17,831 bases of DNA, taken from NCBI GenBank assembly GCA_018651745.1, contig JABIDL010000013.1, forward strand, positions 1-17,831, in the 5' to 3' direction. The position numbers were made by a program, and so were the translations under genes. Under the pieces are notes generated by a model. The model was not told where the DNA came from. It saw only the letters and a list, made by a program, of their open reading frames with translations, and did not search any database. Below are positions 114 to 10,847 of this stretch, piece after piece. The stretch comes from Candidatus Neomarinimicrobiota bacterium. Lineage in GTDB: Bacteria > Fidelibacterota > Marinisomatia > Marinisomatales > TCS55. Within the stretch, counting starts at the first letter, position 1. The number at the start of each line of letters is the position of its first letter.

Positions 114-310
114 ATCATATAGATCAATCAATATCAAACATATAGTCAAATGGGACACCAATTCACGGGACACACCCCAATTTGAATATGTTTTTCAACC
201 CAACTTTTTGAACCGCGGAAAGAAAGACGGGGGTTGGTTCGTAATAATAAAGCATACACACATTATTAAGTAATTTTTTATAAATTCAAGAAAACAATAA
301 GGAATGAAAA
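114..310. other. Non-coding stretch upstream of the small lysine-rich gene
   Basis: I see no convincing gene in this stretch. It holds two direct copies of GGGACAC (152-158 and 167-173, 15 bp apart) and a strongly AT-rich segment from about 240 onward that probably contains the promoter of the 311-412 gene. No -10/-35 pair is clear enough to name. Confidence 0.4.
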
Positions 311-412
311 ATGGGAAAAGGAAAAGATTCTAAAAAAGCAACAAAAAAAGCACCTGCGAAAACTCCAAAAGAAAAAAAAGCAGAAAAGAGACTTAAAAAA
401 GCAAATCGATAA
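311..412 (+). CDS. Small lysine-rich basic protein (33 aa)
   Basis: A 33-residue ORF starts at ATG 311 and ends at TAA 410-412. A good Shine-Dalgarno site AAGGA (299-303) lies 7 nt before the ATG, which argues that it is really translated. The product begins MGKGKDSKK and has 14 lysines and 2 arginines, with alanine, threonine and proline between them; it has no hydrophobic core. The composition suggests an unstructured nucleic-acid- or ribosome-associated peptide. The MGKG start recalls the small ribosomal protein bTHX, but the rest does not match that protein, so no name is given. A palindrome at 418-433 follows just after the stop. Confidence 0.62.
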   Translation: MGKGKDSKKATKKAPAKTPKEKKAEKRLKKANR

Positions 413-417
413 TTATG

Positions 418-433
418 CAAGGTCAAGACCTTG
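418..433 (+). terminator. Palindromic hairpin after the small gene
   Basis: CAAGGTC (418-424) and GACCTTG (427-433) form a perfect 7-bp inverted repeat separated by AA; a 6-bp stem with a 4-nt CAAG loop is also possible. It begins 5 nt after the stop of the lysine-rich ORF. The downstream TCTTCT is only weakly T-rich, so termination is a guess. Confidence 0.4.
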
Positions 434-481
434 TCTTCTGAACAACCATTTCATATTTTGTATTTCATTCAAATTATATGA

Positions 482-523
482 AATGCCTTTGGCATTGATT
501 TAGAAATCATTTTGTTAATGATT
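482..523. repeat. Two adjacent small hairpins at the edge of the duplicated segment
   Basis: AATGCC-TTT-GGCATT (482-496) and AATCATT-TTGTT-AATGATT (505-523) are both perfect inverted repeats. The right arm of the second overlaps the first bases of the iscS 3'-end copy (from 517). They may be the old terminator of the cysteine desulfurase transcript, which would run leftward here, displaced by the 589-1289 insertion. Confidence 0.4.
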
Positions 524-588
524 GCATCGCTCCCATAATTTCTTTCAATGCTTCATCCACATCCGATTCTGTGTTGAGGTGGCCGAAG
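507..588 (-). pseudogene. Degraded copy of the cysteine desulfurase 3' end
   Basis: Bases 517-588 match 1290-1361, the 3' end of the intact cysteine desulfurase gene, without gaps at 65 of 72 positions. All seven differences are transitions. Read on the minus strand, the copy still encodes GHLNTESDVDEALKEI followed by MGAMQSL, versus GRLNTESDVDEALKEI and VGAVQSF in the intact gene. It then reaches its own stop (TGA, 507-509). Beyond 588 (the gene's 5' direction) the match breaks. GAGCAGGAAATAG at 587-599 resembles GAACAGGAAATGG at about 1457-1470, so the fragment may be a longer copy with an internal deletion, but this extension is weak. It has no start and is not functional. Confidence 0.85.
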
Positions 589-671
589 AGCAGGAAATAG
601 TAAACGCCAATAAAAATAATCCTATTTTGTAGGAATGTTATCAAACTTTATAATTATCATGAGGAACTATC

Positions 672-1160
672 TTGAAAAATGAAAACTTTTTAAACCTTTA
701 TTCTCAGGAACGATTACACCAACAATTGAATAAATGTGCAAAAGAAATTGGAGGAAAAAATATTTTTCTCCAACTATTGGAAGCCATTAGAGAAGCTCAG
801 CCCCATCCGTTAACGGAAAGAAACTGTGAATTTCGGTTTGATTTGGGAACTATCAAATGGAGGAAACCCATTTTTAGGGAAAAAGTCTCTTTGTTAAAGC
901 ATGTAAGATTAGTAAATAAGGACGGGAATATTTTCCCAAAAAAGGGGATTAAAGGTTACAAAAGTATTTTGAACCTATTACGAACTCTCAAGCCCATTAC
1001 ATTTGAAGTAAAACCAAAGAATAGAAAACTTGGGCAAGGATTTACATTTCAACCGTTTGATATTATTGATGAGAAAACCACATGTATAAATCCCCTTTTC
1101 GAATCGGTCTTTTTTTCGCCGGTTTATCAGGTCAAAAAAATACTGATTTCTAAAAAGTAA
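672..1160 (+). CDS. Orphan basic protein, unknown function (162 aa)
   Basis: I do not recognise this family. The ORF starts at TTG 672, preceded by GAGGA (661-665) with 6-nt spacing; no suitable in-frame ATG lies nearby, so the TTG start is well supported. The product is rich in lysine, with no signal peptide or membrane segment, so it is probably cytoplasmic. The N-terminal ~50 residues look helical (LHQQLNKCAKEIGG, LLEAIREAQ). The middle is basic and may be beta-rich. One cysteine lies in each of the N-terminal, middle and C-terminal parts. The gene is AT-rich, unlike the cysteine desulfurase beside it, and sits between that gene and a duplicate of its 3' end, which marks it as inserted cargo. 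The TATAAT-like bases at 650-655 could be its -10 element. Coding status is fairly sure; function is open. Confidence 0.7.
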   Translation: MKNENFLNLYSQERLHQQLNKCAKEIGGKNIFLQLLEAIREAQPHPLTERNCEFRFDLGTIKWRKPIFREKVSLLKHVRLVNKDGNIFPKKGIKGYKSILNLLRTLKPITFEVKPKNRKLGQGFTFQPFDIIDEKTTCINPLFESVFFSPVYQVKKILISKK

Positions 1161-1282
1161 CTGATTGAAATTTCTAAAACGTTGAAAATTAAGGATAAGA
1201 TTGGGGAAGTTTGGGGTAATTGTTCAGACAACGCAAAAAGGGCAGGGTAAGTAAATTGCTTTTGTAGTGGGAACCAATTACC

Positions 1283-2437
1283 CTACGAAAATGATTGTAC
1301 CGCTCCCACAATTTCCTTCAGCGCTTCATCCACATCCGATTCTGTGTTGAGGCGGCCGAAGCCAATCCGGATGGACGCTTTTGCCAAAGTATCGCTGTGT
1401 CCTAGCGCTTTCATTACGTAGCTCGGTTCCAGCGTGGCGCTGGTGCAGGCCGAGCCGGAGGAACAGGAAATGGATTCCAGCTTCAGATGCAACGCCTCAC
1501 CGTCCACATTTGGGAAAGACACATTCAAATTATTTGTTAGCCGCCGGGCCATCGTTCCGTTTACAATCGTATCAGGGAAAGCATGCAAAATTCCATTCAA
1601 CAATCTGTCCCGCATGGGCTTCATCCGTTTGGTTTCTTCATCTCTAAGGTCGGCACACCGATTTACTGCTTTGCCAAATCCCACAATCAGCGGCACCGGA
1701 AGCGTTCCCGAGCGAAGTCCGCGTTCGTGTCCGCCGCCGTCCATTTGAAGTTTTAGTTTCACGTCAGAATTAACGTAGAGAAATCCGATGCCTTTCGGCC
1801 CGTACATTTTATGGGCAGTTCCGGCGAGCATAGATAAATTCATCGCTTGCACATCTGTTGGAATTTTTCCAAACGACTGGGCCGCATCGGTAAAGAAGCA
1901 AATGCCGTTTTTTTTGCATAATGCGCCGATCGCTTCCAAATCATGGATAACGCCGATTTCGTTGTTGGCGTGCATGATCGATACCAGAACGGTGTTGTCT
2001 TGTATGGCGCCCTTTAAATCTTCCAAGCTGATGAGCCCGTCAGCTTGAACGGGAAGCGTGGTAACATCCCAACCACGCTTCTCCATTTCGGCGCAGTTAT
2101 CGAGCACTGCTTTGTGTTCAGTCACTTGAGTAATGATGTGCTTACCACTAGATTTATTTGCTTCGCAAAACCCTTTGATGGCAAGATTCACACTTTCGGT
2201 TGCGCCGCTGGTAAAAATGATTTCCTTCGGCTTTGCATTCAATTCATCGGAAATGATGGTTCTTGCTCGATCCACAGCTTCCTGCGCTTTCCAGCCAAAC
2301 GGATGCCGGCTGGCGGCGTTGCCGAATTTTTCTGTGAAATAGGGAATCATTGCTTTCAGCACTTCCGCATCCACGGGAGTTGTGGCATGGTTATCAAGGT
2401 ACAGATTATTCATGGTAGAATCTAAATGTGGATTCAT
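1283..2437 (-). CDS. iscS: Cysteine desulfurase, IscS/NifS type (group I)
   Basis: This is a PLP-dependent enzyme that takes sulfur from L-cysteine as a persulfide for Fe-S cluster and thio-cofactor synthesis in the cytoplasm. The 384 residues show the family's opening YLDNHATTPVD (13-23), TSGATESVN (77-84), the PLP-stacking His108, Asp184 in TDAAQ, the PLP-binding Lys210 in AHKMYGPKG, and the active-site loop SSGSACTS with Cys331. The loop length is that of the IscS/NifS group rather than SufS. The protein is about 20 residues shorter than E. coli IscS and lacks most of the C-terminal tail that contacts IscU. No iscU or iscR is nearby. The codon for Met9 (2413) matches the family's usual N terminus better than the ATG at 2437; neither has a clear ribosome site. 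It is divergent from the hotdog genes, and its final 72 bp are duplicated at 517-588. Confidence 0.93.
   Translation of the reverse strand: MNPHLDSTMNNLYLDNHATTPVDAEVLKAMIPYFTEKFGNAASRHPFGWKAQEAVDRARTIISDELNAKPKEIIFTSGATESVNLAIKGFCEANKSSGKHIITQVTEHKAVLDNCAEMEKRGWDVTTLPVQADGLISLEDLKGAIQDNTVLVSIMHANNEIGVIHDLEAIGALCKKNGICFFTDAAQSFGKIPTDVQAMNLSMLAGTAHKMYGPKGIGFLYVNSDVKLKLQMDGGGHERGLRSGTLPVPLIVGFGKAVNRCADLRDEETKRMKPMRDRLLNGILHAFPDTIVNGTMARRLTNNLNVSFPNVDGEALHLKLESISCSSGSACTSATLEPSYVMKALGHSDTLAKASIRIGFGRLNTESDVDEALKEIVGAVQSFS
1290..1361. repeat. 72-bp repeat, intact partner of 517-588
   Basis: This is the source copy, inside the 3' end of the cysteine desulfurase gene, of the direct repeat at 517-588 (65 of 72 identical, same orientation, no gaps). 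Homology ends within the last three codons before the stop and does not continue into the downstream sequence. Confidence 0.9.
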
Positions 2438-2466
2438 TAAAAAGCGGTTATTTTGTAAGTTTTAGG

Positions 2467-2931
2467 ATGAAAAACAAATGTTTACAGGAAACCTATGCCG
2501 AAAAGAGTATTTGTTTCGGTTGTGGCCCCGCAAATAAAAAAGGTCTTCGCATTCAAAGTTTTGTTGAAGGCGACTTGGTAGTTGCGAAATGGTCAGCCGA
2601 AAAACATCATGAAGCATTCCCGGGAGTATTGAATGGCGGAATAATTGGCACTTTACTTGACTGTCATTGTAATTGGGCAGGTGCGTACTATTTGATGCAA
2701 TCCACCGGAGAAAAAGTAGCCCCCTCAACAGTAACTGCGGAATATTCTGTCAAATTACTTCGTCCAACACCAAGTAGGTCTTCACTTTTTCTTTCTGCCA
2801 AACTGATAGAGCTCGATGGAAAAAAAGCTGTAATTGAAGGTGAACTGAAAGCAGATGGAAAAATTTGTGCTATCTGTACAGGAATATTTGTTTCAGTTGG
2901 TCCGGGACATCCGGGATATCATCGGTGGTAA
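2467..2931 (+). CDS. PaaI-like hotdog thioesterase (154 aa)
   Basis: This is a probable acyl-CoA thioesterase of the 4HBT/PaaI hotdog superfamily, cytoplasmic, cleaving an acyl- or aryl-CoA of unknown identity. Visible signatures are the N-terminal ICFGCGPANKKGLRI (family start), the hotdog-helix motif HHEAFPGVLNGGIIGTLLDCH, the central strand TVTAEYSVKLLRPTP and the C-terminal PGHPGYHRW. The frame is open from a GTG at 2428, but ATG 2467 is preferred because homologues start a few residues before the FGCGP motif, and the extra 13 residues would overlap the divergent cysteine desulfurase start. The stop (2929-2931) is one base from the next ATG, so the two hotdog genes are almost surely co-translated. 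Its exact substrate cannot be read from sequence. Confidence 0.85.
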   Translation: MKNKCLQETYAEKSICFGCGPANKKGLRIQSFVEGDLVVAKWSAEKHHEAFPGVLNGGIIGTLLDCHCNWAGAYYLMQSTGEKVAPSTVTAEYSVKLLRPTPSRSSLFLSAKLIELDGKKAVIEGELKADGKICAICTGIFVSVGPGHPGYHRW

Positions 2932-2932
2932 G

Positions 2933-3400
2933 ATGAATCACATCAAAAGCACATCACTCATCAGATTGTGGGGGTTATTAAATGTCCCGATGATATTTTA
3001 CTGCAGACCTTCTATTGTTAACATCAATGATCAAGTAGTAACACTCAAAATTCCGTTGAAGTGGCGAACAAAAAATCATGTTGGATCTTTATATTTAGGC
3101 GCCTTTGCTGTTGGCGCCGATCTTTCTGCCGGTCTTTTGGCTATGCGTTTCATCAGAAAACAGAACGAAAAGATTGTACCCATTTTTAAGGATTTTAAGG
3201 CCGATTTTTTGAAGCTTGCCAAAGGGGACGTACATTTTACCTGTACGCAAGGCGATGAAGTTCGCGAACTTGTAAACACCGCCGTGCAAACCGGCGAGCG
3301 CCAAAATCTTCATTTGAACATCATTGCAACCGTTCCATCAATTGACGACGAACCTGTGGCAGAAATGGTGATTACCTTATCTATAAAAGTAAAGGAATAA
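2933..3400 (+). CDS. DUF4442 hotdog-fold protein (156 aa)
   Basis: This protein matches the DUF4442 family, a hotdog-fold group related to PaaI-type thioesterases and usually annotated as putative acyl-CoA thioesterase. Features are the basic N-terminal helix, the VTLKIPLKWRTKNHVGSLY segment (the family's RNHVGSIY-like motif, including the conserved Asn-His), GAFAVGADLSAG, and a C-terminal strand ending VITLSIKVKE. The frame is open upstream to 2855, but ATG 2933 is chosen because it follows the previous stop by one base and gives the normal family length. Two different hotdog folds in tandem suggest a shared acyl-CoA or lipid substrate pathway, possibly as a hetero-oligomer; this is inference. 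The last 58 bp of the gene and 2 bp after it are duplicated at 5987-6046, after the next two genes. Confidence 0.85.
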   Translation: MNHIKSTSLIRLWGLLNVPMIFYCRPSIVNINDQVVTLKIPLKWRTKNHVGSLYLGAFAVGADLSAGLLAMRFIRKQNEKIVPIFKDFKADFLKLAKGDVHFTCTQGDEVRELVNTAVQTGERQNLHLNIIATVPSIDDEPVAEMVITLSIKVKE

Positions 3401-3402
3401 CT
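3343..3402. repeat. 60-bp repeat, intact partner of 5987-6046
   Basis: The last 58 bp of the DUF4442 gene, including its TAA, plus 2 bp beyond recur in direct orientation at 5987-6046 with 58 of 60 identical. Homology stops 2 bp after the stop codon on the right. Confidence 0.95.
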
Positions 3403-3458
3403 GCCCAAGGAATGTTAATTGCATTGGCTTTTATTTAGTAATAGTTGTAACATCAAAT

Positions 3459-4799
3459 ATGGTGGCATGGTTTTACATCATTTCAATTGTAATTATTTTC
3501 TGTTCATCTTGTGATGAGACGCAACCCAATGACGAAAATATAGAAAAAGCTGAATGTTCTGTAGGATTCTACCCATGTGATGATGATTCTACAATTTGCT
3601 GTGAATTTGTAATTCCCTCATCAAAAACTCAGACTAGTATAGACTGGCCCTCACTTGCAGATTCACCATGGCCAATGTTTATGCATGATCCACAATTAAC
3701 TGGAAGAAGTCATTTATCTGGTCCAAGGGAAGGATCAATTGATACTGTATATACACCAGGTGGAGAATTATATTCTAATCCTTCGATTGATAGTGAGGAT
3801 AACATCCTTTTTATTAGTAACACTGGATTTCCGATTGGAGATAGCTATCTTATTTCAATAAATGATTCTTCTATAAAAAATTGGGATATGAATCTCGGGA
3901 ATGGATGGTCTGTCGGTACACCACTTATTACGTCAGATTATTATTTATATTTGTCCGCAGTAAATAATAATACAGGGTATTTATTCAAAAGTGATTTAAG
4001 TGGAAATATTGTGTGGACATATTCTCTGGGTTCTTTTTCGAATGAAACAAATGGTTCAGTAAATATTTCTAAAGATGGCAATCTTGTATTTGTCGCTGGA
4101 TTTGGTGGGTCTTTATATGCGGTAAAAAAAGATGGAAATCTTGAATGGAATTATGTTGTTAAATCGGGTATTACAATTGGTAATCCTGCAATGTCCATCG
4201 ACGGGGAACAAATCTATTTCGTTTCTAATGAGCCAGCACTTTATTGTGTATCACTGAATGGTGATTCATTATGGAAAAGAATATTACACGAGAATAGTGA
4301 GGTAAGTACAATTAATCCTTGCGTGGATTCTGATGGAAATATTTATGTGTATTCTGGTGAAAATTTATATTCTTTCTCTAGTGAGGGATATTTAAGATGG
4401 CAATATCAGGGACTCTCCAATGGATATGCTCTAAACGGAATTTCAATTGGTATAGATGGCTCTCTATTTATTTCTACACTTTCGGACTTTTATTGTTTTT
4501 CATATGGTGGATTCTTTAAATGGTCAATGAATATTTTGCAGTACAATTCTGGAATTTCGACGATACCAACCTCTGACATTAATGGATATTCCTTTCTTGC
4601 AATTGATAATACGGACGTTGAGTTTCAAGATTGGATAGGTATAAACTTTATAATATTTGATCAAAGTGGGGGAATTTATAAAAAGTTATCAGTAGGGGAC
4701 CATCGTCATACTGCAGATTCTACCCCCTGCATTGTTAGCGGCGTAATATATGGCGGAACCAGTGGTACAGCTGGGAGTTTTTTGTATTCAATAAAATAG
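3459..4799 (+). CDS. Beta-propeller lipoprotein (PQQ-like repeats), 446 aa
   Basis: This is probably a surface or periplasmic lipoprotein. The N terminus has a hydrophobic segment (residues 2-14) followed by FCSSC; Cys18 is the better lipidation site because Ser stands at -1. A short Cys-rich stretch follows (Cys33, Cys40, Cys47, Cys48), perhaps disulfide-bonded. From about residue 75 to the end there are about seven degenerate repeats of the PQQ/WD40-like propeller type, each with a small-residue strand, a SxDGNxxF/Y turn and a tryptophan strand (for example DGNLVFVAGFGGSLYAV, DGNLEWNYVV, GYLRWQYQG). The pyrroloquinoline-quinone ligands are not evident, so a binding or scaffold role is more likely than catalysis. 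Its base use is clearly more AT-rich than the genes on either side. Together with the next gene it lies between the DUF4442 3' end and its duplicate. Start ATG 3459 lacks a clear ribosome site. Confidence 0.78.
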   Translation: MVAWFYIISIVIIFCSSCDETQPNDENIEKAECSVGFYPCDDDSTICCEFVIPSSKTQTSIDWPSLADSPWPMFMHDPQLTGRSHLSGPREGSIDTVYTPGGELYSNPSIDSEDNILFISNTGFPIGDSYLISINDSSIKNWDMNLGNGWSVGTPLITSDYYLYLSAVNNNTGYLFKSDLSGNIVWTYSLGSFSNETNGSVNISKDGNLVFVAGFGGSLYAVKKDGNLEWNYVVKSGITIGNPAMSIDGEQIYFVSNEPALYCVSLNGDSLWKRILHENSEVSTINPCVDSDGNIYVYSGENLYSFSSEGYLRWQYQGLSNGYALNGISIGIDGSLFISTLSDFYCFSYGGFFKWSMNILQYNSGISTIPTSDINGYSFLAIDNTDVEFQDWIGINFIIFDQSGGIYKKLSVGDHRHTADSTPCIVSGVIYGGTSGTAGSFLYSIK

Positions 4800-4808
4800 G
4801 ATGTTACT

Positions 4809-5957
4809 ATGAAGATTAAATATTACATATTTTTCATAATGAGCCTATTTCTTAAAAGTCAACAAACTCGAATTCCAGGCGAACTTCTTATCCAAATAGA
4901 TGGAAGTGTGAGTCACACAATTGTTTTATCTGCTGTGTCATCGGTTTATAGTTCCTATGGCAATGGATACAGCACTGTGAATGACTTCAACTATTATTCA
5001 AAATTTGGCTCATACATGTTTTTTGGTTTCCTGAGATCTTTGGCAGGAGTGGATGGAACCATTGGGTATTCATTGTACCAATTAACCATTAACAATGACT
5101 CGATCCTTTTAGATTTTAGAGATTGTGATTATGGAAATGGCGATGGGATTTACGGAACAAATTATAATACTCAAGATATGTTTATAAAATATTTCCCTTC
5201 AAATGGTTTCAAAGTAAAAAACCATAATTCGGGGAATTACAGTTGGGTTGAAGGTGATACAGTAATGATATGGGATGATGATAGGAAATCTGTATCTAAT
5301 TATTACAATTCTTGTTTTGGATATCCATCCCCTCCACAGGGGATGACAATACAAAATTATAATGGAAGTCCTAAAATCTCTTGGTCTGCAAATACAGAAT
5401 ATGATTTAGGTGGTTATAAACTTTGGAGAAACCTTAATGGAGGTGGTTGGGAAAATATTTCTACTATGAATACACAGACGAATTCTTATATTGATTATTA
5501 TGTGGATATAATAAATGGTAGAAATTGTTTTTATGCCCAATACAAAACTCAGGCATTTGATTGGGCTGATAGTACTTCAGATTTTTCTATTACAAATGTT
5601 ATCAGATATGGAGGATGTTTTTTACCCCGAACTGGAAATAGTCCAATTGACGAGCACCCCCAATATTTTTCAGTATCGCAGAATTACCCAAATCCATTTA
5701 ATCCAAAAACAATTGTGGACTTTTCGATTCCAGAGCCATCAAAAATTGAAATAAGGATATTTGATTTAAAGGGAAATGAAGTTTTCCTCGGATATGATAT
5801 AATAGAAAATGCCGGGAATTATCAATTCCGTTGGGATGCAAGGACAGATGTTGATAAATCACTTCCTGCTGGTGTTTATTTATTATTGTTTGAATCTCGA
5901 ACTTTAGATGAAAGGAAGTATTATTCAAAGTCTGTAAAGATGATATTGTTGAAGTAG
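4809..5957 (+). CDS. Secreted protein with FnIII-like domain and T9SS sorting domain (382 aa)
   Basis: This is a secreted or surface-anchored protein of unknown role. It has a basic, hydrophobic signal peptide (about residues 1-18); a novel N-terminal region (about 20-170) rich in Tyr, Ser, Asn and Gly; a fibronectin-III-like domain (about 173-265, with PPQGMTIQ, KISWSANTEYDLGGYKLWR); and a C-terminal sorting domain from about residue 285. The last carries the hallmark QNYPNPFNPKT (from 291), then IEIRIFDLKGNEV, AGNYQFRWDA and LPAGVYLL, as in type A C-terminal domains of type IX-secreted proteins and their relatives across FCB bacteria. AGGA overlapping the upstream stop lies 8-9 nt before the ATG, so it is probably co-transcribed with the propeller lipoprotein 9 bp upstream. 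It shares the AT-rich composition of that gene. The pair may form a surface complex; this is not shown. Confidence 0.82.
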   Translation: MKIKYYIFFIMSLFLKSQQTRIPGELLIQIDGSVSHTIVLSAVSSVYSSYGNGYSTVNDFNYYSKFGSYMFFGFLRSLAGVDGTIGYSLYQLTINNDSILLDFRDCDYGNGDGIYGTNYNTQDMFIKYFPSNGFKVKNHNSGNYSWVEGDTVMIWDDDRKSVSNYYNSCFGYPSPPQGMTIQNYNGSPKISWSANTEYDLGGYKLWRNLNGGGWENISTMNTQTNSYIDYYVDIINGRNCFYAQYKTQAFDWADSTSDFSITNVIRYGGCFLPRTGNSPIDEHPQYFSVSQNYPNPFNPKTIVDFSIPEPSKIEIRIFDLKGNEVFLGYDIIENAGNYQFRWDARTDVDKSLPAGVYLLLFESRTLDERKYYSKSVKMILLK

Positions 5958-5976
5958 AGTAATTAATAAGCGCTTT

Positions 5977-6046
5977 GAACGCCAAATGACAACGAACCTG
6001 TGGCAGAAATGGTGATTCCCTTATCTATAAAAGTAAAGGAATAACT
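5977..6046 (+). pseudogene. Duplicate of the DUF4442 gene 3' end
   Basis: Bases 5987-6046 repeat 3343-3402 at 58 of 60 positions. The copy still encodes DNEPVAEMVIPLSIKVKE and a stop, versus DDEPVAEMVITLSIKVKE in the intact gene; both differences change an amino acid. Directly before it, GAACGCCAAA (5977-5986) resembles GAGCGCCAAA at 3296-3305 of the intact gene, so the fragment may once have been longer and lost about 37 bp internally. It has no start codon. It lies 66 bp before the DUF885 gene, so the original layout was probably DUF4442 directly followed by DUF885. Confidence 0.9.
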
Positions 6047-6112
6047 TCCATTTTTCCTTCCGCTTTGTAAATTCCCCACTCATTATTCAACCCGATTTCT
6101 AAAGGATATTTC

Positions 6113-7882
6113 ATGAAAATTATATTAACGACACTTTCTGTTACAGCTCTCTTAATGTGTTCCGGATGTGATATGTCGCCGGAAGATGCAACCACCGCGC
6201 TTCATCAGCTGTTTGAGGACGAGTGGGAAAAGGGACTGAAAGAGCATCCTGAAAGCGCAACATATCAGGGTGATGACCGCTACAACGACCGGCTGACAGA
6301 CTTAAGTATAGATGCTATTGAAAAACGGCATGAGGATTCCGATGACCTTTTGAAAAAGCTAAATAAGATTCCGCGGGAACAATTGTCTGAACCTGATAAA
6401 CTGAATTTCGATCTGTATCGCAAAAAACTCACACGTAGATTAGAAGGGTTTCAATACAAAGGCTATCTGATGCCGATCGACCAAATGGGAGGTGTCCAGA
6501 TTAATTCACCGAATTTGGTCAATATAACGCCATTCAGAAATCAAACGGATTTTGACAATTACTTGAAGCGGTTGGAAGCAGTTCCGGTTTACGTGGATCA
6601 AATTATTGAGCTGATGGAAAAAGGTCTTGATGAGGGATTTATTCAGCCGAAAATCATTCTCAGATCTGTTCCTGAACAAATTAAAGCTCAGTATAACTTG
6701 GAAGTTGAAGACAGCCCGTTCTTCAAACCGTTTAAAGAAAAATTAACGGCCTTGCCCGACTCACTGCATGAGACGTATGTATTGTGGGGAAAAGAAGCGG
6801 TCGGAAACCATATTTTTGGATCCTTTACCAAATTAGATGAATTCTTTTCGGAAGAATATTTACCGAGCGCGAGGGAAGATGTTGGCGCCATGCATTTCCC
6901 GAACGGAGAAGCGTATTATGCTTTTCAAATAGAGAATTATACAACTACCAAGAAGTCTGCAGAAGAGATTCACCGCATTGGTCTGAATGAAGTACTGCGC
7001 ATCCGAAACGAAATGGATGAGGTGATTGCTGAATCCGGTTTTCAGGGAGGCTTTAAACAATTTGTGGAATATCTCAGAACCAATCCGGATTTCTATTATT
7101 CGACGGCGGAAGAATTATTGGAAGGGTACCAAGCCATTTGCAAAAAAGCTGATCCTGAATTGGTGAAGCTGTTTGGTGTTCTTCCGAGAATGCCGTACGG
7201 CGTAAAGCCGATTCCGGATTATCAGGCGCCCGCTTCACCGACTGCATATTATTATTCCGGTTCCAAGGAAGGAAACCGGCCGGGATATTTTTGGGCAAAT
7301 ACCTATAAAATTGAAACGCGCCCCAAATATGAAATGGAAGCGCTGTCCCTGCACGAAGCGGTTCCGGGGCACCATCTTCAGATTTCATTAGCTCAGGAAT
7401 TGGAAAACGTTCCGGAGTTTCGGAAGCACGGAGGATTCACCGCCTTTACCGAAGGGTGGGGTCTTTATTCTGAAAAGCTCGGAGAAGAAATGGGATTTTA
7501 TCAAGATCCGTATTCCAAATTTGGCCAGCTAACGTATGAAATGTGGCGCGCCTGCCGCTTGGTTGTGGATACAGGAATGCATGCATTCGGGTGGCCCCGG
7601 GAAAAGGCGATCAAGTTTATGCTCGACAACACCGCCAAAACTGAAAATGACGTTACGGTTGAAATTGACCGATATATTGCATGGCCGGGGCAGGCGCTTG
7701 CGTACAAAATCGGTGAACTGAAAATCAGAGAACTTCGACAAAAAGCCGAGGATGCTCTTGGCGAACAATTCAATATTCGTGATTTCCATGATATTGTTCT
7801 TGGCAACGGATCGATTCCTTTGGATTTACTCGAAGAAAATGTGAATCAGCATATTTCTTCAATCTTGGATGTTGAAGGGTAA
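6113..7882 (+). CDS. DUF885 metallopeptidase-like lipoprotein (589 aa)
   Basis: This protein belongs to the DUF885 family of large, mostly helical, predicted zinc-dependent carboxypeptidase-like proteins. The N terminus is a lipoprotein signal peptide (hydrophobic 3-15, then CSGC with Cys19 as the lipidation site), placing it in the periplasm or outer membrane. The metal-site signature is HEAVPGHH (residues 414-421; His414, Glu415 and His420/His421), with a further conserved Glu447 in FTEGWGLYSE. The conserved C-terminal segments EIDRYIAWPGQALAYKIGE and DFHDIVLGNGSIPLDLL are also present. Length is normal for the family. AAAGGA six bases before ATG 6113 fixes the start. It is followed 21 bp later by the M16 subunit genes, suggesting a shared role in breaking down peptides in the envelope. 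Actual peptidase activity is inferred from the motif. Confidence 0.9.
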   Translation: MKIILTTLSVTALLMCSGCDMSPEDATTALHQLFEDEWEKGLKEHPESATYQGDDRYNDRLTDLSIDAIEKRHEDSDDLLKKLNKIPREQLSEPDKLNFDLYRKKLTRRLEGFQYKGYLMPIDQMGGVQINSPNLVNITPFRNQTDFDNYLKRLEAVPVYVDQIIELMEKGLDEGFIQPKIILRSVPEQIKAQYNLEVEDSPFFKPFKEKLTALPDSLHETYVLWGKEAVGNHIFGSFTKLDEFFSEEYLPSAREDVGAMHFPNGEAYYAFQIENYTTTKKSAEEIHRIGLNEVLRIRNEMDEVIAESGFQGGFKQFVEYLRTNPDFYYSTAEELLEGYQAICKKADPELVKLFGVLPRMPYGVKPIPDYQAPASPTAYYYSGSKEGNRPGYFWANTYKIETRPKYEMEALSLHEAVPGHHLQISLAQELENVPEFRKHGGFTAFTEGWGLYSEKLGEEMGFYQDPYSKFGQLTYEMWRACRLVVDTGMHAFGWPREKAIKFMLDNTAKTENDVTVEIDRYIAWPGQALAYKIGELKIRELRQKAEDALGEQFNIRDFHDIVLGNGSIPLDLLEENVNQHISSILDVEG

Positions 7883-7903
7883 TCGGCTAAATTTGGCGCT
7901 TCT

Positions 7904-9247
7904 ATGAAAAGACAACTGCTCATTTTACTCCTGATTAATACAGGAATTTTTGCATCCGAACCGACGCATTTTACGCTCGATAACGGTCTCAAAGTGATTG
8001 TCATGGAAAAACATTCCATTCCTGTCGCTGCTGTGCAAGTCTGGTACGATGTTGGCAGTCATGATGAATGGGATGGTATCCGGGGTACGGCCCATTTGTT
8101 TGAGCATATGATGTTTCGTGGAACAGAAAATTATGAATCTGAAGAGCACGCCCGCTTAATCAATGAAGCTGGAGGCTACAACAATGCTTTCACGTCTGAT
8201 GATGTTACGGTGTATCACGAACGCCTTCCCTCCGGAAAGCTTGAACTTGCTTTAAAGCTTGAGGCAGAGCGCATGCATCTTTTAAAACTGAATGAAGATA
8301 TTCTCGCAACGGAGCGCGAAGTGGTGCATGAGGAATATCGTCAGAGAAACGCAAATCCAATTGGAAAGCTGTTTCTCAAATTCCGTGGAGAAATGTACCC
8401 CGAGAAACATCCGTATGCCGTAACGCCAATTGGAATTATGGATCAGCTAGATACGGTTTCAGTCAAAACATGTCAGACGTTTTACGACATGCATTACGGT
8501 CCAGAGAATGCAACACTTGTCATTGTGGGTGATGTAGATCTCGAAAAAACTAAGGTGTTGGTGAATCAATATTTTGGTGTAGTCCGCCCATTGGGAACGC
8601 TTCCCGAAAACCCCGATTTATCCATACCAACGCAAACAGAGAAAGTTGTACTGAATGAAGAATCGTCTTTCGATCTTCCGGTCACTCTTATGGGTTTTCC
8701 TGTCCCGGGATCGGCTCATGACGATATCGCCGCGTTAGATGTTCTCAGCTACATAATGTCTAATGGACAAAGTTCCCGCTTAAATCAGGTTCTTGTTCGG
8801 GAAAAGCAACTGGCTTTGGGCGCCGGTGGATTTCCGATGTCCATGAAAGGTCCGGGAATTTTTATCTATTTCTCATTCTATTTTCCGCAAGTCAGTTCCG
8901 CTACAATTGAAAAGGCGATTATGGATATTGTTCAGGATATTCGAGAAAACGGGGTAGCGGTTGCCGAGCTCAGCAAGGCGAGAAAACAAATGCTTGCCGG
9001 GAAAGTGTTTGAAAGATATTCTGCAAATTCGCTTGCAAGCTCCCTTGGAAATGCTGAATTGGTCATGGGTGATTATCGAGAATTCAATACAGAAATTGAA
9101 CGATTTAATGCTGTAACTGCAGATGATGTACAGCGTGTTGCAAATGCCTATTTCACAGAAGAGAAAATGACAATAATGCACATCCAGCCGGAAAACTTGT
9201 CTTTCCTCAAGAAATGCATGTTCTGGGTTGCCGGACTGTTTATGTAA
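7904..9247 (+). CDS. M16B zinc peptidase, catalytic subunit (447 aa)
   Basis: This is an exported M16-family (pitrilysin/MPP-like) zinc peptidase. It has a signal peptide (about residues 1-17, ending IFAS), the N-terminal strand FTLDNGLKVIV, and an intact inverted zinc motif HLFEH (His64, Glu67, His68) within GTAHLFEHMMFRGT. The third ligand Glu lies in the REVVHEEYRQR helix. In the C-terminal half, the conserved substrate-binding Arg of the R-x6-Y pair is present (Arg299 in VREKQ), but the tyrosine seven residues later is replaced by glycine (Gly306). The length of one M16 half-repeat module, with two domains, is normal for subunits that work as heterodimers. The next gene begins 3 bp after the stop and encodes the likely partner, which carries the missing Tyr. 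Confidence 0.92.
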   Translation: MKRQLLILLLINTGIFASEPTHFTLDNGLKVIVMEKHSIPVAAVQVWYDVGSHDEWDGIRGTAHLFEHMMFRGTENYESEEHARLINEAGGYNNAFTSDDVTVYHERLPSGKLELALKLEAERMHLLKLNEDILATEREVVHEEYRQRNANPIGKLFLKFRGEMYPEKHPYAVTPIGIMDQLDTVSVKTCQTFYDMHYGPENATLVIVGDVDLEKTKVLVNQYFGVVRPLGTLPENPDLSIPTQTEKVVLNEESSFDLPVTLMGFPVPGSAHDDIAALDVLSYIMSNGQSSRLNQVLVREKQLALGAGGFPMSMKGPGIFIYFSFYFPQVSSATIEKAIMDIVQDIRENGVAVAELSKARKQMLAGKVFERYSANSLASSLGNAELVMGDYREFNTEIERFNAVTADDVQRVANAYFTEEKMTIMHIQPENLSFLKKCMFWVAGLFM

Positions 9248-9250
9248 GCC

Positions 9251-10624
9251 ATGAAAAATTTCATAATAAATCTGATGGTATTTTTGGGAATAGTATTTGC
9301 CCAAGCGCCGATTATAGATTATCCGGAATTTGAAACATTCACAATGCCGAACGGTCTCAAGGTCATGATTGCCGAACACCATGAAAACCCTGCCGTATTT
9401 ATGAATATGATGATTGAAGTCGGTTCCATGGATGTTGCTGTTGGGAAGGAAGGACTTGCAGGCATTATGTCTGAGCTTGTTCCAAAGGGAACAAAAGATC
9501 ACACAGCAGATGAAATTTCAGAATTAATTGATGCAACCGGGGGGAGTTTGAATGCCGGAATCGGGCTGGAATACACAAATGTTTCGGGAAGATTTTTGGC
9601 AGAAGACCTTGAATTTGGATTGAATATGATGGCGGAATTGATTCAGCACGCCACATTTCCTGAAACGGAATTCAAATTGACCATGAAGCAGAATAAAGAA
9701 GGAATCAAAACCTGGTATTCCGATCCGTCTTCTGTGGCATCAGCGCACGGGGATTATTTGCTTTTGGGTGAAACGCCCATGGGAAGAATGACTACGGAAC
9801 AAACGTTAAAATCTATTTCACTTAATGATGTAAAAGAATTCTACAAGAATATCCGCCCGGATATTTCAACATTGGTGCTGATTGGTGATTTTGAAACAGC
9901 AACGGCTAAATCGCTGATTGAATCTTCGCTTGGAAGTTGGACTGTTGATGGAAGTCCGATGCATCGCGCTGGATTTGCTTACGAAGATATCAATGGGCTC
10001 AAGTTTCGGTTCGTGGATAATCCGGAATTAGAGCAAGCTACAATTTATATGCTTCAGTGGGGATTGCCCCGTACGCATGAAGACCGCTATGCTATTAAGC
10101 TAGCGAATTACATTTTTGGAGGCGGTGCATTTTCTTCTCGTTTAATGAAAGTGGTGCGCGGAGAAGGTGGAAAAACTTACGGCGTTCGGAGTTGGGCATC
10201 GTCTAGAATGGATTATGGAGCCTTTGGGATAAGTACTTCAACAAGAAACCCTGAAGTGGTTAATACATATCAATTGATTATGAGTGAGCTCAAGCAACTA
10301 CGAGATGAGGGCGTGACAGACGACGAATTACAGAAGGCAAAGTTATTTTACACCGGATCTCAACCGCTTAGTCTGGAATCACCCGGTGCTATTGCAGTTA
10401 GTGTTTTGTCTGCACTTTATTACGGATTTACCATTGAAGATTTGGAAACATCTCTAGTCAAATTAAATGCGGTCACATTAGATGAAGTAAACGCAGCTAT
10501 AAAAAACCATTATGATGAAGCGAACAGAGTCCTTGTTATTGTGGGCAACGGCGGTGAAATAAAACCGTTGATTCAGCCGATTGGATCATTCGAAGAATCC
10601 TTTTATAAAGACGACGTTCACTAG
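9251..10624 (+). CDS. M16B peptidase-like partner lacking the zinc site (457 aa)
   Basis: This M16-family protein has lost the catalytic motif. It has a signal peptide (1-18, ending VFAQ) and the family fold (FTMPNGLKVMIAE at the N terminus; FYKNIRPDISTLVLIGDF closing the first domain). At the HxxEH position it reads GIMSE: Gly71, Ser74 and Glu75 replace His, Glu and His. The second domain does keep the substrate-binding pair Arg303 and Tyr310 in VRGEGGKTYGV. The pairing of an active HxxEH subunit with an inactive R/Y subunit is known for heterodimeric M16B enzymes such as mitochondrial processing peptidase and the Sphingomonas SPH2681/SPH2682 pair. A heterodimer with the preceding product is the likely functional unit. 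The start is 3 bp after the upstream stop, so the two are translationally coupled. Confidence 0.92.
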   Translation: MKNFIINLMVFLGIVFAQAPIIDYPEFETFTMPNGLKVMIAEHHENPAVFMNMMIEVGSMDVAVGKEGLAGIMSELVPKGTKDHTADEISELIDATGGSLNAGIGLEYTNVSGRFLAEDLEFGLNMMAELIQHATFPETEFKLTMKQNKEGIKTWYSDPSSVASAHGDYLLLGETPMGRMTTEQTLKSISLNDVKEFYKNIRPDISTLVLIGDFETATAKSLIESSLGSWTVDGSPMHRAGFAYEDINGLKFRFVDNPELEQATIYMLQWGLPRTHEDRYAIKLANYIFGGGAFSSRLMKVVRGEGGKTYGVRSWASSRMDYGAFGISTSTRNPEVVNTYQLIMSELKQLRDEGVTDDELQKAKLFYTGSQPLSLESPGAIAVSVLSALYYGFTIEDLETSLVKLNAVTLDEVNAAIKNHYDEANRVLVIVGNGGEIKPLIQPIGSFEESFYKDDVH

Positions 10625-10643
10625 AAAATAATTCGCTTTTCAT

Positions 10644-10847
10644 TTGCAGTACGGAACCGTAAAAGAATACAATAATTCAAAAGGATTCGGATTTATAACC
10701 GGTGACGATGGCGAGGATTATTTTGTGCATGTTTCCGGATTGGGGCCCAGAGTGAAAGATCGGGGGTTACGCCAAGATCAACGCGTTGGCTTTGATGTAG
10801 ATTTTGATATGAAAGGCGACCGAGCAATAAATGTAACATCGGTCTAA
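10644..10847 (+). CDS. Cold-shock domain protein, divergent (67 aa)
   Basis: This is a single cold-shock (OB-fold) domain that probably binds single-stranded RNA or DNA. RNP1 KGFGFI and RNP2 YFVHVS are both intact. The family start MQYGTVKWFN reads MQYGTVKEYN here, so the usual exposed Trp of strand 1 is Glu and Phe is Tyr, which should weaken base stacking. The start is TTG 10644: the upstream in-frame stop TAA is at 10629-10631 and there is no ATG between, and residue numbering matches the family exactly from this TTG. No Shine-Dalgarno site is visible. It lies 19 bp after the M16 gene on the same strand and might be read with it. Confidence 0.9.
   Translation: MQYGTVKEYNNSKGFGFITGDDGEDYFVHVSGLGPRVKDRGLRQDQRVGFDVDFDMKGDRAINVTSV

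Follow-up and report, generated by a model that had tools for sequence, protein, structure and literature searches.

Integrative elements are known from the 3' ends of tRNA or protein-coding genes, e14 at icd being one example. DNA may also be inserted with a long duplication of the target, and the duplications observed in Helicobacter pylori by Nobusato and colleagues in 2000 are said to be often of about 100 base pairs (bp). Published accounts describe this insertion with long target duplication from H. pylori 26695 and J99 (PMC1643837, PMC4978471). In Arabidopsis, transposed genes are flanked by direct repeats of more than 30 bp, mostly genic, that derive from the orthologous empty target site (PMC2869330). 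Here we report the analysis of a 17,831-bp stretch of DNA (the window), which is the complete contig C13 of a draft genome (G000; 1.86 Mb, 96% complete) of a Candidatus Neomarinimicrobiota bacterium. Two host genes in the window, encoding a nifS-like protein and a DUF4442 protein, are each followed by AT-rich DNA and by a second copy of their own end. Comparison with a sister species of the same genus (G001) and with a further relative (G002) identifies both structures as insertions of foreign DNA, for which a long target duplication is the probable origin.

Two insertions flanked by duplicated gene ends

The two sites comprise the following features, with open reading frame abbreviated as ORF.

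Site 1
517..588, minus strand: stub copy of the repeat; the adjoining positions 477-516 are ancestral downstream DNA
589..1289, no strand: insert of 701 bp, 33% G+C, not at this site in G001
672..1160, plus strand: insert ORF of 162 amino acids, with no Pfam or PHROG family
1283..2437, minus strand: intact host gene, nifS-like cysteine desulfurase / class-V aminotransferase (Aminotran_5; Pfam PF00266, E-value 5.5e-78)
1290..1361, minus strand: 72-bp repeat copy within the intact nifS-like gene, single copy at the empty site of G001 (L077:11606-11676)

Site 2
2933..3400, plus strand: intact host gene, DUF4442 (thioesterase-like; Pfam PF14539), with orthologues in G001 and G002
3339..3405, plus strand: 67-bp repeat copy at the end of the intact DUF4442 gene
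3406..5982, no strand: insert of 2577 bp, 34% G+C, not at this site in G001 or G002
3459..4799, plus strand: insert ORF of 446 amino acids, PQQ-type beta-propeller protein (Pfam PF13360/PF13570)
4809..5957, plus strand: insert ORF of 382 amino acids with a Por_Secre_tail-like C-terminus (Pfam PF18962, E-value 2e-5)
5983..6049, plus strand: stub copy, running on into ancestral DNA toward a DUF885 gene at 6113

The original prediction, made from the window alone, had noted the succession of gene, AT-rich cargo and 3' repeat twice within 6 kb, and this arrangement is borne out. The copies at site 1 (517-588 and 1290-1361) are 90% identical over 72 bp and score 99.6 bits, and those at site 2 (3339-3405 and 5983-6049) are 94% identical over 67 bp and score 104 bits, far above the best off-diagonal repeat (38.3 bits) obtained in 60 first-order resamples of the window. 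At both sites one copy is, as had been stated, the 3' end of an intact gene, on the minus strand for the nifS-like gene (88% identical to its G001 orthologue) and on the plus strand for DUF4442. The repeat sequences of the two sites showed no other matches in the genome beyond trivial ones.

Both sites are empty in the sister species. At site 1, window positions 477-588 and 1291-2414 correspond to L077:11717-11606 and 11676-10553 of G001, where the two segments overlap by 71 bp, and positions 477-588 are continuous with L077:11717-11606 at 87% identity. At site 2, positions 2955-3405 and 5994-10845 correspond to L077:7478-7028 and 7083-2223, with an overlap of 56 bp, and the site is likewise empty in G002, in which positions 5994-10820 align with L078:4966-133. 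Because the empty sites are present in G001 for both loci and in G002 for site 2, the two structures are true and independent insertions. In each of them the ancestral downstream DNA continues from the stub and not from the gene.

The expected AT bias of the cargo was confirmed, with G+C contents of 33.1% at site 1 and 33.9% at site 2 against a sample mean of 39.4%, which place the inserts in the lowest 1.2% and 0.3%, respectively, of stretches of the same size. Relatives of the 162-residue protein are patchily distributed at other loci within the bacterial family, and one of them, in genome G022, is encoded on a contig with toxin-antitoxin-like genes. No relative of the propeller protein was found in G001 or G002, the best one, with 36% identity, being encoded elsewhere in the order. 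The PF18962 match of the 382-residue protein (25.1 bits) lies slightly below the curated cut-off of 27.

Searches for the machinery or source of the inserts returned little. No integrase or transposase was detected among the families of the insert ORFs, in agreement with the prediction as regards integrases, and the tyrosine-recombinase matches of the genome do not lie in the inserts. No inverted repeat was seen between the insert ends when these were compared by eye. The cargo ORFs belong to Pfam families other than those of restriction-modification systems, or to none. The cargo gave no IMG/VR matches and a single weak PHROG match, and the target sequences of the two sites were not found in IMG/VR contigs. 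Searches with each cargo in 40 genomes of the family did not yield a donor in which the cargo follows the gene, and for the site 2 cargo no close donor was found above 36% identity in 245 genomes of the phylum, nor any in GTDB contigs.

Origin and boundaries of the duplicated copies

Alleles were counted with G001 as the reference. The two copies share 5 lineage alleles at site 1 and 7 at site 2, whereas copy-specific changes concentrate in the stubs (5 of 7 at site 1 and all 4 at site 2, or 9/11 when pooled). The shared lineage alleles indicate that both copies are of host lineage, and the distribution of the remaining changes that the stub has decayed. Judging from these alleles, the second copy appears to be host-lineage target sequence duplicated on insertion, and not a foreign att site. 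An att site brought from another lineage would not yield copies sharing host-lineage alleles, although one from a same-species donor could.

The boundaries of the repeats did not agree with the proposal that homology ends at the stop codon. The nifS repeat stops 4 nucleotides before the present stop codon, which is itself insert DNA, so that the insert supplied a new coding end without restoring the old one; the protein ends in QSFS* in the genome under study and in QS* in G001. The DUF4442 repeat, in turn, extends 5 nucleotides beyond the stop, and the coding end of this gene is restored. Internal deletions had also been suspected in the stubs, but extensions of the stubs past the repeats with such deletions were not significant, with 18/60 shuffles at site 1 and 4/60 at site 2 performing equally well. 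Comparison of the targets and insert ends of the two sites for a shared motif gave p 0.03 in 1 of 12 comparisons and non-significant values in the others, and the common core motif that had been envisaged at the ends is hence unsupported.

A third insertion and the frequency of the pattern

A third insertion was identified on contig C20 of the same genome. Its 83-bp repeat, which corresponds to a single-copy overlap of 80 bp in G001, begins in the last ~17 nucleotides of one gene, spans the intergenic DNA and reaches the start of the following gene. The insert, which carries an ORF judged by eye to be methyltransferase-like, starts with 42 bp matching the downstream gene but displaced by 186 bp (score 54; 0/500 shuffles as good), implying that the duplication once measured at least 311 bp and that the insert lies within the duplicated copy of the second gene. 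No displaced remnants of this type were found at sites 1 and 2. The C20 case is a target duplication of variable length, not an att site at a gene 3' end, and the repeats, of 72 bp, 67 bp and, on C20, 83 bp (at least 311 bp originally), are far longer than the target duplications of transposons. With the stop codon of nifS omitted and the C20 repeat not confined to a 3' end, the specificity for gene 3' ends implied by the prediction is not supported.

The indel scan covered ~336 kb aligned between the genome under study and G001. It returned seven insertions specific to the former, one of them merely a second palindromic repeat; three of the remaining six, namely the two in the window and the one on C20, show single-copy overlaps in G001, of 56, 71 and 80 bp. 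Among the G001-specific insertions of the scan none carried a duplication signature, except for a repeated element on C10. A survey for the strict 3'-end pattern (repeats 35-150 bp long and 80% or more identical, ending no more than 15 nucleotides from the stop codon and with the partner downstream) included 718 kb (39%) of the genome under study, 732 kb of G001 and 471 kb of other genomes. It detected two cases in the first sample, both in the window, two in G001 (on C12 and C26) and none in the other genomes. The excess of 3'-end repeats anticipated by the prediction was thus absent from the 39% of the genome sampled, which holds no other strict case. Neither G001 case was retained as clean, as the stub on C12 resembles a diverged allele and C26 presents a further rearrangement.

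Several other direct repeats were set aside. Positions 47504-47587 and 49626-49709 of C20 hold two near-identical 84-bp palindromic elements (TGTCATACCGGACTTGTTCCGG...), resembling repetitive extragenic palindromes (REP) or miniature inverted-repeat transposable elements (MITE); the REP-like pair (47504/49626) was excluded from the cases. The same applies to repeats at GIY-YIG ORFs (C20 35000/35317; G001 C3 20643/21045). In the former (L122:15000-15346, C20:35000-35346), a small GIY-YIG-like ORF lies between 30-bp direct repeats that resemble, by eye, part of a tRNA-Ser gene, and a similar GIY-YIG/tRNA neighbourhood occurs in G001 (L162:643-1230). A 39-bp piece of a sortase gene on C33 was likewise excluded. 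On this contig, 899 bp encompassing an outer-membrane-like ORF (C33:16555-17453, matching L170:9703-10601) carry a piece resembling the end of the nearby sortase gene. The two species share 95% identity in this segment, against 76-84% in its flanks, which suggests a recent exchange between them.

Neighbouring features

Adjacent to site 1, window positions 235-476 (27% G+C) contain a 33-residue lysine-rich mini-gene (ORF 311-409) that is missing at the same place in G001. Over 208 bp the segment shares 88% identity with a locus of another genus (L102:6895-7100), where the match adjoins a relative of the 162-residue cargo gene; the lysine-rich ORF is possibly a mobile mini-gene. In L102 (G007), copies of a terminator-like sequence stand behind successive genes (2551-2601, 4306-4356 and 5832-5880), as though the genes had arrived with, or next to, terminator copies. 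At site 2, only 24 bp (2931-2955) remain between a hotdog-like gene and DUF4442, and in G001 and G002 an amidohydrolase gene and a second small gene occupy this interval, indicating that the region has lost genes too.

Probable insertion with long target duplication and its alternatives

We consider it reasonably probable (roughly 0.57) that insertion with long target duplication gave rise to both structures, independently and in the fairly recent past, from small segments of foreign DNA. Some 60-85 bp of host sequence, or at least 311 bp in the C20 case, would have been duplicated at the point of insertion, with one copy keeping the gene intact and the other persisting as a decaying stub. The acquired DNA is presumed to have been linear and joined by illegitimate recombination rather than by a site-specific enzyme, and staggered-break fill-in, template switching or sister-chromatid joining are candidate routes. 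The preference for gene ends may reflect selection, because insertions into a gene are retained only where the duplication preserves one complete copy.

The resemblance to the H. pylori cases, as described in the accounts cited above, lies in the presence of the insert in one of two related genomes, in flanking direct repeats of which the empty genome has one copy and in the fact that no transposase is needed as an explanation. Unlike in those accounts, where the insertions are tied frequently, although not obligatorily, to restriction-modification genes, the cargo consists here of a 162-residue protein gene without a family, a propeller protein, secreted-type proteins and, by eye, a methyltransferase-like ORF on C20, and the phylum is a different one. 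The Arabidopsis transposed genes (PMC2869330) share inserts flanked by target-derived repeats, but they come from a plant genome and are explained there by the insertion of circular recombination products.

Several observations weigh against this explanation. Ku was not found in the genome, which makes classical end joining unlikely, and donor molecules have not been seen. In 4 of the 5 cases examined a repeat ends about 10 nucleotides or less from a stop codon, which is not expected of random targets in the absence of selection. Furthermore, two insertions lie within 5.5 kb while none of the strict kind occurs elsewhere in the 718 kb sampled, a distribution more clustered than a uniform process would produce.

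A possible, though clearly less probable, explanation is that DNA of a conspecific donor, in which the cargo already followed the gene end, was acquired as a fragment that formed a circle and integrated through a single crossover within the gene end, or that entered with one end homologous and the other illegitimate. The homology would in that case end where the downstream DNA of donor and recipient differ, near the stop codon, and the copies would carry same-lineage alleles, as observed. The presence of ComEC makes DNA uptake possible. The same layout of gene, foreign DNA and duplicated gene-end fragment has been produced in Escherichia coli by single-crossover integration of recircularised, partly degraded molecules, although with a laboratory plasmid, an engineered gene end and duplications of 109-950 bp (PMC3240628). 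This explanation requires, however, cargo already located after the gene, an arrangement not seen in the 40 genomes of the family, and it fits the C20 case poorly, since the donor would need an interrupted second gene. Moreover, 60-70 bp of homology is short for a RecA-dependent crossover.

It is unlikely that a tyrosine recombinase acted in trans on an attP that carried the gene 3' end, as in phages and islands at tRNA genes and icd. Gene 3' ends with identity blocks of 40-80 bp, the layout of gene, element and 3'-end fragment, and the two looser G001 cases with homology ending at the stop codon do recall such elements, and four tyrosine-recombinase matches exist in the genome. These four, however, are XerD, a XerC-like protein and two integron integrases; the inserts carry no recombinase, the targets share no att core, neither target occurs in IMG/VR contigs, both copies are of host lineage and the nifS coding end is not exactly restored. 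Of the cassette integration at gene 3' ends that had been proposed, the entry of foreign cargo with duplication of a gene end is supported by the empty sites in relatives, whereas the trans-acting recombinase, with no shared motif, is not. We regard as very improbable that the integron integrases inserted cassettes at secondary sites. The inserts are cassette-sized, and a relative of the 162-residue gene occurs beside toxin-antitoxin-like genes, but a target duplication of 60-80 bp is not a feature of integron insertion, and a simple R''/R' scan of unproven sensitivity detected no attC-like site in the window (and next to none on the integron-integrase contigs, with their cut-off arrays). Both integrases (TIGR02249; L180 and L181, on C32 and C3) lie near contig ends, on the cassette-array side, and their arrays were probably broken by assembly. 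Equally hard to credit is an artefact of assembly or strain mixing in this metagenome-assembled genome. The window makes up an entire 17.8-kb contig of a draft genome, yet the copies differ by 6-10% and are hence not k-mer duplicates, the insert-to-stub junctions lack any overlap from which a false join might arise, the ancestral order on the stub side is found again in an independent assembly, and a similar case exists on another contig.

Implications

The observation that prompted this analysis was correct and careful, but the specificity for gene ends and the trans-acting recombinase are not supported; the uptake of DNA fragments, which it also raised, is possible. Under insertion with long target duplication, the sites do not constitute a new integration system but a new example of a known, under-explained kind of insertion, in a phylum that is, to our knowledge, new for it. 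They also advise caution, as gene-end repeats can arise from duplication and selection rather than from att sites. A broader proposition, which we think rather doubtful, is that the Neomarinimicrobiota recurrently gain genes without an integrase, preferentially at gene ends and with duplication of 60-300 bp of the target, in a process that may be coupled to DNA uptake. If true, this route would account for half of the clean lineage-specific insertions detected in this analysis. The ways in which single accessory genes reach a genome with no integrase or transposase are poorly understood, and the three clean insertions, each matched by an empty site in a sister species within an uncultured marine phylum, allow insertion with long target duplication to be measured by strain comparison.

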